IMG/VR virus record: IMGVR_UViG_3300025853_000494
Coordinates: 1 to 28,677 of that record
Direction: 5' to 3' (one strand)
Origin: a virus
Length of the DNA stretch: 28,677 bases
Below the pieces are notes generated by a model. The model made no database searches. It was not told the DNA's origin and saw only the letters and a program-made list of their open reading frames with translations. How positions within the stretch are numbered: position 1 is the first letter of the stretch; the number at the start of each line of letters is the position of its first letter. Below are positions 36-3,179 of this stretch, piece after piece. The position numbers were made by a program, and so were the translations under genes.

Positions 36-144
36 TATTAAGCTGTATTAGGTATACTTTTCTACTACATATTAACACTTGCCTCTGTGGTTAACACTTA
101 ATTTTCCTGATCTGTGTGTTTGTACATGCATAACGTACGTATAC

Positions 145-168
145 GGGGTGGCGGCCCATGCCCACCCC
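145..168. repeat. GC-rich hairpin in leader
   Basis: GGGGTGG (145-151) pairs perfectly with CCACCCC (162-168) across a 10-base loop. No run of T follows on either strand, so it is a poor intrinsic terminator. It stands out against the AT-rich surroundings. Function unknown. Confidence 0.4.
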
Positions 169-314
169 ATTGTTTACGCAGATTTCGGTCATATGTCATG
201 GGATTTGCCGCAATGTTTTGATCAATCTTGGCATTGCTTAAACATTCAATCTATAAACCGTTGCCCTATATAGGTTTTTCTTTTGCTGGCAATTGTTATG
301 CTATCACTTGCCTT

Positions 315-329
315 TTTTCACCATGAAAA
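315..329 (+). promoter_or_regulatory. TTTTCA-N3-TGAAAA box, copy A
   Basis: TTTTCA-CCA-TGAAAA followed by more A (seven in total). First of six copies in the first 3 kb. A TTGACA lies 13 bp downstream (343-348), but I see no good -10 at the matching distance. Probably a protein-binding site. Confidence 0.6.
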
Positions 330-407
330 AAACCAGTAGTTTTTGACACACCGCATGCGTTGCTTTGGCGGTGCATACCCTATGAGAACAAAGCAGGAAC
401 GGTCATG

Positions 408-448
408 TGTGACATATTTGCAACAGTGTGACATTCCCACTGTGACAT
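408..448. repeat. Three TGTGACAT direct repeats
   Basis: TGTGACAT occurs at 408-415, 427-434 and 441-448, with start-to-start distances of 19 and 14 bp, immediately upstream of box copy B. The last two copies are also part of a CAGTG-N9-CACTG inverted repeat (425-443). The half-site resembles the TGTGA of CRP-type sites, but no TCACA partner is present. Candidate operator or iteron cluster. Confidence 0.45.
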
Positions 449-471
449 AAATACCACACAGATAACGTAAA

Positions 472-486
472 TTTTCACCATGAAAA
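472..486 (+). promoter_or_regulatory. TTTTCA-N3-TGAAAA box, copy B
   Basis: TTTTCA-CCA-TGAAAA within a 25-bp stretch that matches copy C at all but one position. Its centre is about 68 bp upstream of the predicted start of transcript from the 512-540 promoter, a distance typical of an upstream activator site. Copy C has nearly the same spacing to its own promoter. Confidence 0.65.
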
Positions 487-511
487 AAAGTGAAATATGT
501 GTTTTTTCGCA

Positions 512-540
512 TTGCCAAAGCAATCAAAATTTGATCTAAT
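512..540 (+). promoter_or_regulatory. Putative sigma-70 promoter for gene 585-1202
   Basis: TTGCCA (512-517), 17 bp, TCTAAT (535-540): each hexamer is one base from consensus. Transcription would start near 547, directly at the TGGCA-ATAA-TGCCA repeat and about 38 bp before the gene. Confidence 0.5.
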
Positions 541-546
541 CATACA

Positions 547-560
547 TGGCAATAATGCCA
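547..560. promoter_or_regulatory. Inverted repeat TGGCA-N4-TGCCA at +1
   Basis: TGGCA-ATAA-TGCCA lies six bases after the predicted -10. An identical-arm repeat is at 1436-1449 in the same position relative to the next candidate promoter. It could be a repressor operator at the start site or a 5' mRNA hairpin. Confidence 0.5.
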
Positions 561-584
561 AGCAACAAATAAATGAGGTTTATC

Positions 585-1202
585 ATGACTATCACTATCA
601 ACAAGACCAATGCCGCCAAGATCGTTAATGCTGTTATTGAGTATGAAAGCAATCTGTCTGACATGTTTCATGTAAACTATGACAAGGTTTATCAACCATT
701 GCTTGATCTAATGAAAGCACGCCAAGCATACAAGGAAACACAAAAGACTGGCGTCCAAAAGGCAATGCTTGCTTGGGACCAAAACTATAGCATACGCGAC
801 AAAGCTGGAAATTATCGCATCACGCCAAAGACCATGAGCGCGGCAAAATTTGCGCTAGATACGCCAAAAGAACGCCTCTTTCAAATTGCCACCGCATGCA
901 ATGCCGCTTCTCTTGAGGGTGTTTATAACAACCGTAATTTTGATCAAGAGCCTACACAAAGAACACGCAAAAATGCGAGCGCAAGCAAAACGCCAGCAAG
1001 ACAAAGCAATCCTGATAACATTTCCAATTGGAAATTGCCTGAAATTGTTGCTGGCATTCTCGCGAATGACAAATATGGCGACATGAATGCGCCGGAAATT
1101 GTCGCATTGCTTGGAACAATTGCTCAAACACTATGTAAAGACAATGGTGTCAAACAAGCGGCCTTTTCACAAGCAATGGCCAAGACAAAGAAAGCGGCAT
1201 AA
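585..1202 (+). CDS. Early protein of unknown function (205 aa)
   Basis: I do not recognise this family. The start at 585 (MTITINKTNAAK) is chosen because GAGG (575-578) sits six bases before it; an in-frame ATG at 573 has no ribosome-binding site. The first ~120 residues look helical. Around residues 120-145 there is a basic, low-complexity linker rich in Lys, Arg, Ser and Ala. The last ~60 residues (from NISNWKLPEIVAG) look like a second helical domain, ending in a Lys-rich tail. The gene is a single-gene unit, with its own promoter candidate (512-540) upstream and a strong terminator (1226-1255) downstream. It is therefore expressed separately from the genes that follow, as expected for a regulator or early host-takeover protein. 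No helix-turn-helix is obvious. Confidence 0.8.
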   Translation: MTITINKTNAAKIVNAVIEYESNLSDMFHVNYDKVYQPLLDLMKARQAYKETQKTGVQKAMLAWDQNYSIRDKAGNYRITPKTMSAAKFALDTPKERLFQIATACNAASLEGVYNNRNFDQEPTQRTRKNASASKTPARQSNPDNISNWKLPEIVAGILANDKYGDMNAPEIVALLGTIAQTLCKDNGVKQAAFSQAMAKTKKAA

Positions 1203-1225
1203 GCTTACACAACACGCAACATACT

Positions 1226-1255
1226 GGCCGGGCATAATTGCCCGGTCTTTTTTTT
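1226..1255 (+). terminator. Intrinsic terminator after gene 585-1202
   Basis: CCGGGC (1228-1233) pairs with GCCCGG (1240-1245), extended by one G-U and one G-C pair, with a six-base loop ATAATT and eight T following. It closes the first transcription unit and implies a fresh promoter for the genes downstream. Confidence 0.9.
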
Positions 1256-1324
1256 GCGCCTAGTGTTTTAATGTGTTAATACATGAATACAGCCTGATTG
1301 CTCACCATATGACTACGGTCATAA

Positions 1325-1355
1325 GTGGGTGGTGGGTGGTGGTGGGGTGTGTGGC
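1325..1355 (+). repeat. G-rich GGGTGG tract
   Basis: A run of GGGTGG and GGTGG units on the plus strand with three runs of three or more G and several GG runs. Shorter copies lie at about 1382-1388 and 1457-1466, on either side of the candidate promoter. It could form a two-tier G-quadruplex or be simple-sequence slippage. The 1256-1519 gap also holds box copies C and D. Confidence 0.5.
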
Positions 1356-1362
1356 AAATAAA

Positions 1363-1377
1363 TTTTCATCATGAAAA
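1363..1377 (+). promoter_or_regulatory. TTTTCA-N3-TGAAAA box, copy C
   Basis: TTTTCA-TCA-TGAAAA, flanked like copy B by TAAA on the left and AAAGTG on the right. Its centre is about 66 bp before the predicted transcript start of the 1398 promoter, matching the geometry of copy B. Confidence 0.65.
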
Positions 1378-1397
1378 AAAGTGGGTGGCTACACGGC

Positions 1398-1428
1398 TTG
1401 ACTTATCTTTTCTGTATGATACTATAAG
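1398..1428 (+). promoter_or_regulatory. Candidate promoter upstream of gene 1520
   Basis: TTGACT (1398-1403) and TATAAG (1423-1428) are good hexamers but are 19 bp apart, longer than usual. The position fits: it follows a terminator and precedes the next gene, with an upstream box and a +1 inverted repeat arranged as at 472-560. A long spacer might make it activator-dependent. Confidence 0.4.
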
Positions 1429-1435
1429 GAATGCT

Positions 1436-1449
1436 TGGCAGTGATGCCA
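1436..1449. promoter_or_regulatory. Inverted repeat TGGCA-N4-TGCCA, second copy
   Basis: TGGCA-GTGA-TGCCA begins seven bases after the candidate -10 at 1423-1428. The arms are identical to those at 547-560 and only the four-base centre differs, so it is probably the same operator or 5' RNA hairpin used twice. Confidence 0.5.
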
Positions 1450-1487
1450 CTTTTATGGGTGGTGGTGATGTCAACATAAAACAAAAA

Positions 1488-1502
1488 TTTTCATGGTGAA
1501 AA
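1488..1502 (+). promoter_or_regulatory. TTTTCA-N3-TGAAAA box, copy D
   Basis: TTTTCA-TGG-TGAAAA, 17 bp before the ATG of gene 1520. The box itself contains an in-frame ATG-GTG-AAA-AAA, as do copies E and F. Confidence 0.6.
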
Positions 1503-1519
1503 AATATAGGAGGTCATAT

Positions 1520-1771
1520 ATGGCTAAACACTTAAATCTAGTGTGGGATAATGGCAGAATGGTTCCACCATCGCGTACTGCCAGATCACACTCAAGGCAT
1601 TATGTGCCATCGGGTCAAGATGCCTACATGCAAACTTATGGGCATGTAAACTGTCAACATCTATTCAAACACACTCATGAAACATATGAGGATGTTCAAT
1701 TTGCACAGGCGGCTGTTGAATTGACAAATATGATTGATTGGGATACACTTTTAGAAAGTGAAGACTTCTAA
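1520..1771 (+). CDS. Small protein of unknown function (83 aa)
   Basis: The start at 1520 (MAKHLNLVW) follows a full AGGAGG (1508-1513) at six bases. An in-frame ATG inside box D (1493) would add nine residues but has no ribosome-binding site. The N-terminal half is rich in His, Arg and Ser with several aromatic residues. The C-terminal third is acidic (ending WDTLLESEDF) and probably helical. No motif or family is recognised. It is the first gene after the 1226-1255 terminator and precedes the GP88-like gene by a short gap that contains box copy E. Confidence 0.7.
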   Translation: MAKHLNLVWDNGRMVPPSRTARSHSRHYVPSGQDAYMQTYGHVNCQHLFKHTHETYEDVQFAQAAVELTNMIDWDTLLESEDF

Positions 1772-1785
1772 ACATCAACCGAAAA

Positions 1786-1800
1786 TTTTCATGGTGAAAA
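1786..1800 (+). promoter_or_regulatory. TTTTCA-N3-TGAAAA box, copy E
   Basis: TTTTCA-TGG-TGAAAA followed directly by AAATG, so the GGTGA in the right half could act as ribosome-binding site for the ATG at 1803. It is the only recognisable element in the gap between genes 1520 and 1803. Confidence 0.6.
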
Positions 1801-1802
1801 AA

Positions 1803-2672
1803 ATGACTATCTACAATCTCAAAAACTATCGTGACTATATGCGTAACGCTAACCAGACATTGCGTGAGCATTATGACAATGACCCACTCATTGTTGCCTG
1901 TCGTGAGGCGGCACGTACCAAGATTGCCAATGCTTTGCAGTCTGACGGTGTACTTGACTGGTCAATGTTACCTAACCTGCTCACTCGCAATCCCAAGCTG
2001 GTCAAGTCCGACAAAGAGGATGTGCTGACTGCTGGCATTGCAATGGCTGCATCATGGGCGTCTGGTTACAATGGGTGCAATGATGCGTCTATCGGGTGTG
2101 GTAAGGTCTGTCTTACATTTAGTGGTCATGGGCAAAAGCACATGGTTATTGATGGCAGACATCATGTTCACATTGCTCGTATTACTCGTATGCTGTTATG
2201 GATGGAGTATCGTGACCAATTCAAGGCTAGGCTGTTGCATGAGATACGATTACACAAACGCAAAGCTGACAGACTAGGTGTGACGTGTTCTGTGCGGCCT
2301 AATGTGGTGCAGGATATTATGTGGGAAAAGCTATTTCCTGAGATGTTCAGTGCCTTTCCTGACGTGGTATTCTATGACTACACCAAAAATATTAGGCGTG
2401 ATGTCAGTCACATACCAAACTACAGCTTGACATTCTCGCTGAACGAATCCAACAGCTTGTTTATTGAAACAGCATTCATGAAAGGCTGGAATGTGGCTGT
2501 TGTGTTGCGTAATGCCGCAAAGGTTTTGCCCAAGCAATTTATGGGCAAGCGTGTCATCAACGGTGACGCACATGACTATCGGCCTAGTGATCCACATGGT
2601 GTGTTCGTTGGGCTGTTGCCTAAGGGTCCGACTGCTTGGAAAGACACATCAGGCTTTGTTTATGACGCATAA
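1803..2672 (+). CDS. GP88-like phage protein (289 aa)
   Basis: The central part resembles the phage 'gene product 88' family, known from mycobacteriophages and other phages and of unknown function. Features seen are a cysteine cluster C92-x6-C99-x3-C103, an Arg- and His-rich helical stretch after it (HHVHIARITRM), a VRPNVVQDIMWE segment (165-175) and YDYTK (191-195). The N-terminal ~70 residues look like a separate helical region. Clustered Cys could bind a metal or Fe-S centre; this is inference. Start: ATG 1803 follows GGTGA in box E, while ATG 1791 lies within the box and has no ribosome-binding site. Base composition is like its neighbours. The assignment rests on remembered motif order, so it is moderately secure. 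Confidence 0.7.
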   Translation: MTIYNLKNYRDYMRNANQTLREHYDNDPLIVACREAARTKIANALQSDGVLDWSMLPNLLTRNPKLVKSDKEDVLTAGIAMAASWASGYNGCNDASIGCGKVCLTFSGHGQKHMVIDGRHHVHIARITRMLLWMEYRDQFKARLLHEIRLHKRKADRLGVTCSVRPNVVQDIMWEKLFPEMFSAFPDVVFYDYTKNIRRDVSHIPNYSLTFSLNESNSLFIETAFMKGWNVAVVLRNAAKVLPKQFMGKRVINGDAHDYRPSDPHGVFVGLLPKGPTAWKDTSGFVYDA

Positions 2673-2685
2673 ACGTGAATATGAC

Positions 2686-2714
2686 TTGACTTCAAAGATA
2701 CCAACAGGTATAAC
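2686..2714 (+). promoter_or_regulatory. Sigma-70 promoter P2686
   Basis: TTGACT (2686-2691), exactly 17 bp, TATAAC (2709-2714). The same hexamer pair and spacing recur at 6239-6267, with a close relative at 12086-12114. It lies in a 78-bp gap and would drive the run of small genes from 2751 to about 6235. Confidence 0.8.
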
Positions 2715-2750
2715 ACCACTATAGCAACCAACAGAAAAGGAGATTTTGCT

Positions 2751-3005
2751 ATGATTATCAACTACCTCGACACAAAACTGACTCTTCTTCGCTTTCGTCT
2801 TTCGGGCCACAAGCCTACCATTATCCGCAACAACAAGCGGGTGAGCCGTGGCTATTCAGTAGAATTGTCTGCCAAGGGTAACTTCATTGAAGTGAACAAT
2901 GGCATGCAGGTTCAATACTTCACGAAAGCTAATCCTTTTCACAATGTTTATCGCATTGTGTCCAAGAATGGGAATGACTTCATCACGCACAGGGTGCAGT
3001 CATAA
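2751..3005 (+). CDS. Small basic protein of unknown function (84 aa)
   Basis: The start at 2751 follows AAGGAG (2736-2741) at nine bases and lies about 30 bp after the predicted transcript start of P2686. The protein is basic, with alternating hydrophobic and polar residues that suggest a small beta-rich fold (segments SRGYSVELSAKGNFIEV and VYRIVSKNGNDFITHRV). No family is recognised. As the first gene behind a strong host-type promoter it is probably expressed early. Box copy F begins two bases after its stop codon. Confidence 0.75.
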   Translation: MIINYLDTKLTLLRFRLSGHKPTIIRNNKRVSRGYSVELSAKGNFIEVNNGMQVQYFTKANPFHNVYRIVSKNGNDFITHRVQS

Positions 3006-3006
3006 A

Positions 3007-3021
3007 TTTTCATGGTGAAAA
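3007..3021 (+). promoter_or_regulatory. TTTTCA-N3-TGAAAA box, copy F
   Basis: TTTTCA-TGG-TGAAAA plus A, identical to copy E over the box. The ATG in its centre (3012) is the best start for the small gene that follows. Last of six copies. Confidence 0.6.
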
Positions 3022-3179
3022 AAATCACCATCATTAATCCAGTGGCTAGGGCAATGGCGGTTAATCGCCGCCGTGCCTTAGTCGTACCACCCAAGAAGGG
3101 CAAAGGCTCTTACAACAGAAAGAAGGACAAGACAGATGCAAAGCAACAACAGTTCAAATTTCCAGAAGATCAAGGCTAA
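3012..3179 (+). CDS. Small Lys/Arg-rich phage protein (55 aa)
   Basis: ATG 3012 sits inside box copy F and opens a frame beginning MVKKITIINPVARAMAVNRR and continuing with a strongly basic stretch (VPPKKGKGSYNRKKDK). Short proteins of this type (NPVA...RR followed by a Lys-rich tail) are common in marine phages, from memory, and have no assigned role. The charge suggests nucleic-acid binding. No Shine-Dalgarno sequence precedes the start, so initiation may depend on the AU-rich box or on coupling to gene 2751. Its 3' end overlaps the next small gene by 44 bases in another frame. Confidence 0.65.
   Translation: MVKKITIINPVARAMAVNRRRALVVPPKKGKGSYNRKKDKTDAKQQQFKFPEDQG

Follow-up and report, generated by a model that had tools for sequence, protein, structure and literature searches.

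In the present study we followed up a set of short palindromes (boxes) near the start of the 28.7-kb virus record IMGVR_UViG_3300025853_000494 (IMG/VR), the whole of which is referred to here as the window. The boxes are probably dyad operators of the phage's own protein, Gp1, which would limit early transcription and whose specificity would have diversified as in immunity systems. Binding of the boxes by Gp1 is strongly supported, and from the data at hand we infer repression, an immunity role and binding as a dimer.

The boxes and their counterparts in relatives

Judged by its genes, the window is an HMO-2011-type marine podovirus, with DnaB-like helicase, primase and PolA in shared synteny and a divergent structural block, and is related to Puniceispirillum phage HMO-2011 and to the roseophages CRP-1 and CRP-345. 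It represents a fragment of a genome type of about 55 kb, its position 1 corresponding to about position 53,470 of HMO-2011, and it includes a hypervariable stretch that runs from a conserved element (66-175) to about 3478. The element, the boxes and the candidate regulator gene are as follows.

66..175, + strand: DNA element 5' of the early genes, conserved in relatives with and without boxes (blastn)
315..329, + strand: box 1, TTTTCACCATGAAAA
472..486, + strand: box 2, TTTTCACCATGAAAA, 98 nt before the ATG of the gene at 585
585..1202, + strand: candidate regulator gene Gp1, 205 aa, proposed from synteny and co-occurrence
1363..1377, + strand: box 3, TTTTCATCATGAAAA
1488..1502, + strand: box 4, TTTTCATGGTGAAAA, just 5' of AGGAGG and the ATG at 1520
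1786..1800, + strand: box 5, TTTTCATGGTGAAAA, which overlaps the start codon of the following gene (in-frame ATG 1791)
3007..3021, + strand: box 6, TTTTCATGGTGAAAA; the ATG (3012) of the following gene lies within it

All six exact copies of TTTTCA-N3-TGAAAA that an earlier note on this DNA had reported (at 315, 472, 1363, 1488, 1786 and 3007) were recovered, the remainder of the window has no further copy even with two mismatches allowed, and none arose in 100 dinucleotide shuffles. The centres read CCA, CCA, TCA and three times TGG, in the order claimed, and the flanks do share an orientation, with a 3' run of 6-7 A and with AAA before five of the left arms; the repeated unit around each box comes to about 25 bp. 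Confinement of the boxes to the first 3 kb holds for the 28.7-kb fragment only; the near-identical contig L208 has one more TTTTCA box (L208:8196), before a different primase allele.

When relatives were searched directly for the TTTTCA box, only L208 was positive, and the box was absent from all loci found through their primase, including three with 97% primase identity. This at first seemed a refutation, but de novo searches for palindromes then revealed other spellings. In many relatives the early region has its own homogeneous set of 14-16-bp palindromes, e.g., GTCCAA-N2-TTGGAC, GTCCGA-N2-TCGGAC, GTCCGACAGCGGAC, GTCCTACCTAGGAC, TGTAAC-N3-GTTACA, TGTAGCA-N2-TGCTACA or GTGTTA-N2-TAACAC, the GTCC-type boxes conforming overall to GTCC[A/G/T]..GGAC. 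The expectation had been fixed arms with drifting flanks, and the relatives showed something different: the arms are constant inside one phage, but between phages they switch as a set. Furthermore, the centres pair as reverse complements inside one genome (CCA/TGG in the window, ACAG/CTGT in HMO-2011; 24 of 66 loci), which argues for recognition of duplex DNA.

With respect to genes, 39% of the GTCC boxes and 59% of those of the other classes lie at most 60 nt before an ATG, against 15% of random positions. Some boxes overlap the start codon and others lie up to about 100 nt 5' of it, and 19-22 nt before the ATG is the commonest position in the GTCC branch. A -10 signal just 5' of the boxes is weakly enriched (0.29 vs 0.21). 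A scan of the collection with an 18-bp pattern returned single matches only, the pattern being too permissive; relatives without boxes yielded no convincing asymmetric direct repeats, and CRP-3 no box set within the 8 kb examined.

Gp1 accompanies the boxes

Gp1, of about 170-217 aa, is the first early gene of the box-bearing phages, and their boxless relatives are without it. An open reading frame (ORF) occupied the Gp1 slot in 11 of 11 dereplicated loci with boxes and in 1 of 16 loci without (p=9e-7), where the slot was measured from the conserved leftward gene and the table of slots was defined after its rows had been inspected. Locus L214 was entered as box-bearing from separate palindrome results, and the slot of the window, which has no leftward anchor gene, was judged from the element at 66-175; this element matches HMO-2011 53535-53601 and many IMG/VR relatives (blastn) and forms the left edge of the hypervariable early region. 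A Fisher test on the presence of any long ORF, in loci with against loci without boxes, gave p 0.52. The slot of the window gene is that of HMO-2011 gene 74, CRP-1 gp01 and CRP-345 gp01 (Gp1 accessions ADW08446.1 for HMO-2011 and QBQ72410.1 for CRP-1). One boxless locus with an ORF in the slot, L248:2888-3523, carries in front of two genes another kind of repeated leader element (GCCAATAATGGCCGACTAAC).

Among loci picked regardless of Gp1, all 16 that have a GTCC-family Gp1 also have a box set. Loci picked by a search with the GTCC-branch Gp1 had a repeated palindrome set in 75 of 80 cases, compared with 0.4% after shuffling. Almost all of those 75 sets are of the GTCC type, the call for L372 resting on another palindrome; of the five loci without a set, most are contigs that end shortly after Gp1. 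One box lies inside the Gp1 gene itself in 68 of 75 distinct GTCC-branch genes, in the segment that codes for a low-confidence linker.

A residue-to-base code in the GTCC branch

In the GTCC branch, which is the best sampled, the identity of Gp1 residue 110 predicts base 5 of the box in 75 of 75 distinct proteins and carries the full entropy of the label: T or V goes with A, S with G, K with the HMO-2011 form of the G box, and Q with T. Next in rank are residues 114 and 117, which share a face of the helix with it; residue 138 also scores, and is encoded by the internal box itself. In a tree from which the columns of helix and linker had been excluded, the box label changes about 15 times, at least 11 of them on well-supported branches, and phylogenetically independent pairs agree in 11 of 11 cases (p=0.001). 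AlphaFold predicts for the GTCC-branch Gp1 a confident all-alpha core, a flexible linker and C-terminal helices, the helix of residue 110 spanning 109-125. Because residue 110 tracks base 5 across independent pairs, the covariation indicates that the GTCC-branch Gp1 almost certainly reads the box.

The earlier note had proposed that one dedicated regulator binds the boxes, and had named the gene at 585 as a candidate binder. Both proposals are supported by the box sets of other spelling in the corresponding early region of relatives, by their co-occurrence with a gene in the 585 slot and, in the GTCC branch, by the tracking of base 5 by residue 110. Its statement that the window has no recognisable repressor gene is probably wrong, as 585-1202 is a candidate regulator that no library recognises.

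Organisation of the early region and a proposed mechanism

Besides the boxes and Gp1, the early region of the window contains the following features.

1226..1255, + strand: strong intrinsic terminator directly 3' of Gp1
1398..1425, + strand: TTGACT-16-TACTAT, promoter-like, located between boxes 3 and 4; TG precedes the second hexamer
1520..1771, + strand: early gene, 83 aa, function unknown
1803..2672, + strand: early gene of the GP88 family (PF17338)
2751..3005, + strand: early gene, 84 aa, function unknown, no box in front
3012..3179, + strand: small early gene, 55 aa; other box-bearing phages have relatives of it

Gp1 is probably its own transcription unit, because the strong terminator adjoins its 3' end; terminator-like hairpins also follow the Gp1-slot genes in L134, L214 and L210. 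The GP88 gene of the window is 87% identical in DNA to that of L236, and the box in front of it is wholly different (GTGTTAAATAACAC in L236). The boxless gene at 2751..3005 has a promoter-like TTGACT-17-TATAAC of its own at about 2690. The product of 3012-3179 is small and basic, with a weak match to ArfA below the curated cut-off.

In the mechanism that we propose, Gp1 would be made from the first early gene, closed off by its own terminator, and a Gp1 dimer would bind duplex DNA at each box. Through the boxes 5' of its gene, and in other branches also inside it, bound Gp1 would limit its own synthesis, and at the leader boxes of the early genes that follow it would block or roadblock their transcription. 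Each phage uses one box spelling for all its sites; upon a change in the recognition helix the whole set of sites would change along, rendering relatives mutually insensitive in the manner of immunity groups. Since the positions of the boxes vary, an operator or roadblock fits better than a fixed promoter or ribosome-binding element, and an immunity-type system fits because specificity has switched repeatedly. Such a system may serve lysogeny or an early shut-off during lytic growth. Integrases are reported in HMO-2011-type phages, and integration for CRP-3, a member of another subgroup (PMC9038755, PMC6918029).

Several results weigh against this proposal, and the first of them concern its physiology. 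No prophage or lysogen with Gp1 was found among 84,980 species genomes (the prophage search did turn up one contig of a metagenome-assembled genome with a related primase), and integrase is also present in relatives without boxes. The count of promoter-like matches near the boxes is not above chance in the region, so operator and roadblock are putative modes of action. The others concern the Gp1 of the window itself. Sequence comparison did not establish homology between it and the GTCC-branch Gp1 (hhalign E 0.25; best indirect link through L214, E 0.005). Its AlphaFold model, built from three distant rows, reached a predicted local distance difference test score (pLDDT) of 36 and was not used, and database searches gave the near-identical L208 as the sole relative of the TTTTCA class, for which the covariation test is therefore impossible.

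Nevertheless, the window Gp1 occupies the first-early-gene slot, has a similar length and is surrounded by a multi-copy box set; it also shares the linker and terminator features, its C-terminal part being joined via an A/K/P-rich linker and ending in -KKAA. By synteny we infer that it belongs to the same family as the GTCC-branch Gp1, from which it has diverged too far for sequence and fold tests. Sequence searches assigned Gp1 to no family in Pfam, PHROG or PDB, and Foldseek against PDB returned nothing below E 0.9.

Other explanations of the boxes

Conceivable, yet unlikely, is a Gp1 that reads the boxes and, instead of repressing, activates early or middle genes or acts on them as an antiterminator. 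Many early genes are preceded by a box, and the promoter-like site at 1398 has its expected start about 62 bp 3' of box 3, a distance typical of activators. However, the boxes keep no fixed distance to promoters and starts, some overlapping the ATG and others lying as far as about 100 nt away; several early genes are kept without a box in boxless relatives; and the box inside most GTCC-branch Gp1 genes (68/75) is hard to reconcile with an activator site.

Clearly less probable is a function of the boxes as partition or replication sites, parS- or iteron-like, bound by Gp1. Several palindromes of 14-16 bp in one region with the gene of the binder alongside would suit such a function, and a phage ParB-like protein gave a single, very weak fold match. 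The sites, however, lie at gene junctions and near starts across some 3 kb and are not clustered in a single intergenic array; the window proteins that were scanned include no recognised partition ATPase, and neither a Pfam match nor a significant PDB fold match pointed to a domain of the ParB/KorB type.

Slightly more improbable still, the boxes could be RNA hairpins in mRNA leaders, acting as signals for translation or processing like the start-associated sequence (SAS) sites of mycobacteriophages. In cluster K, SAS and extended SAS (ESAS) elements are similarly placed (PMC3203893), and many boxes stand 19-22 nt before the ATG, adjoining the Shine-Dalgarno sequence. Against this, reverse-complement centres in one genome would give unrelated RNA loops, the hairpins would be almost loopless at many sites, the spacing to the ATG varies, and the covariation between residue and base indicates a helix that reads DNA. 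Least probable of all, and scarcely tenable, is binding by a host regulator: the palindromes with their A-rich flanks do resemble host operators, but their spelling differs among close phage relatives in step with a phage gene.

Comparison with known systems

The proposed regulation by Gp1 resembles known phage systems in part. Lambdoid CI and Cro likewise have dyad operators, a few helix residues that set specificity, and immunity groups, whereas lambda operators are clustered at two promoters, unlike the dispersed boxes, and Gp1 falls in no recognised repressor family. In phage P1, one repressor, C1, serves operators scattered at many separate genes, as we propose here; the P1 operators are asymmetric 17-bp sites, unlike the boxes, and no relationship was found.

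In cluster A mycobacteriophages, the repressor blocks transcription elongation and gives superinfection immunity. Their stoperators (L5, Bxb1) are likewise many dispersed copies of one short site, and the motif is group-specific and tracks the repressor (PMC6550527, PMC9283540), a covariation found here in the GTCC branch only. Stoperators are asymmetric, 13 bp long and read by a monomer, whereas the boxes are 14-16-bp palindromes with dyad symmetry. The boxes are also less numerous (about 5-10), most of them lie in the early region, and Gp1 is without a Pfam, PHROG or PDB match. The SAS and ESAS repeats of cluster K are similar to the boxes in standing just 5' of start codons; about half of the SAS are preceded by an inverted repeat whose consensus differs among subclusters (PMC3203893). 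The SAS (GGGATAGGAGCCC) includes a Shine-Dalgarno-like GGAG and has no known binder (PMC3203893), whereas here the Shine-Dalgarno sequence lies outside the box, and the box covaries with a protein.

As for HMO-2011-type phages themselves, a text search of PMC9038755 gave no repressor or promoter. No regulator is named in PMC6918029 where it treats integrase and lysogeny, and nothing relevant came from a literature search on HMO-2011 and palindromes.

According to PMC9038755, HMO-2011-type phages are a dominant and broadly distributed marine group, some with integrase. Tentatively, Gp1 and its boxes may represent an unrecognised, widespread family of immunity-type regulators in this group, in which a single residue would be the main switch of operator specificity and the dispersed sites, five to ten per phage, would be rewritten in concert, although we would not yet put this reading ahead of its denial. 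If it is true, the immunity group of a phage could be read from its sequence. In any case, HMO-2011-type phages gain a candidate regulator, its sites and a residue-to-base rule in the cultured isolates HMO-2011, CRP-1 and CRP-345, as well as a natural data set on the joint change of specificity of a DNA-binding protein and its many scattered sites.

Additional elements in related loci

Some relatives without boxes carry tRNA-Trp (CCA) genes (L133:5443-5516 and L203:3132-3205), and an unrelated large phage contig has seventeen tightly packed TCACA-N-TGTGA palindromes (L284:2089-2510).

Two RNA elements were seen beside GTCC boxes. A hairpin leader with a conserved apical CTTGAAACTTTAGTGAAAG lies 60-70 nt before the boxes in L226, L206 (2977-3046), L167, L250 and others; it matched no Rfam family at the gathering threshold in the three loci scanned, and 11 of its 17 predicted pairs show compensatory changes. 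After the GTCC boxes in many loci, a small covarying hairpin (N4-CGGAG-N4') often holds the Shine-Dalgarno sequence in its loop, with a stem of at least 4 in 42 of 91 early-gene leaders, as against 1 after shuffling.

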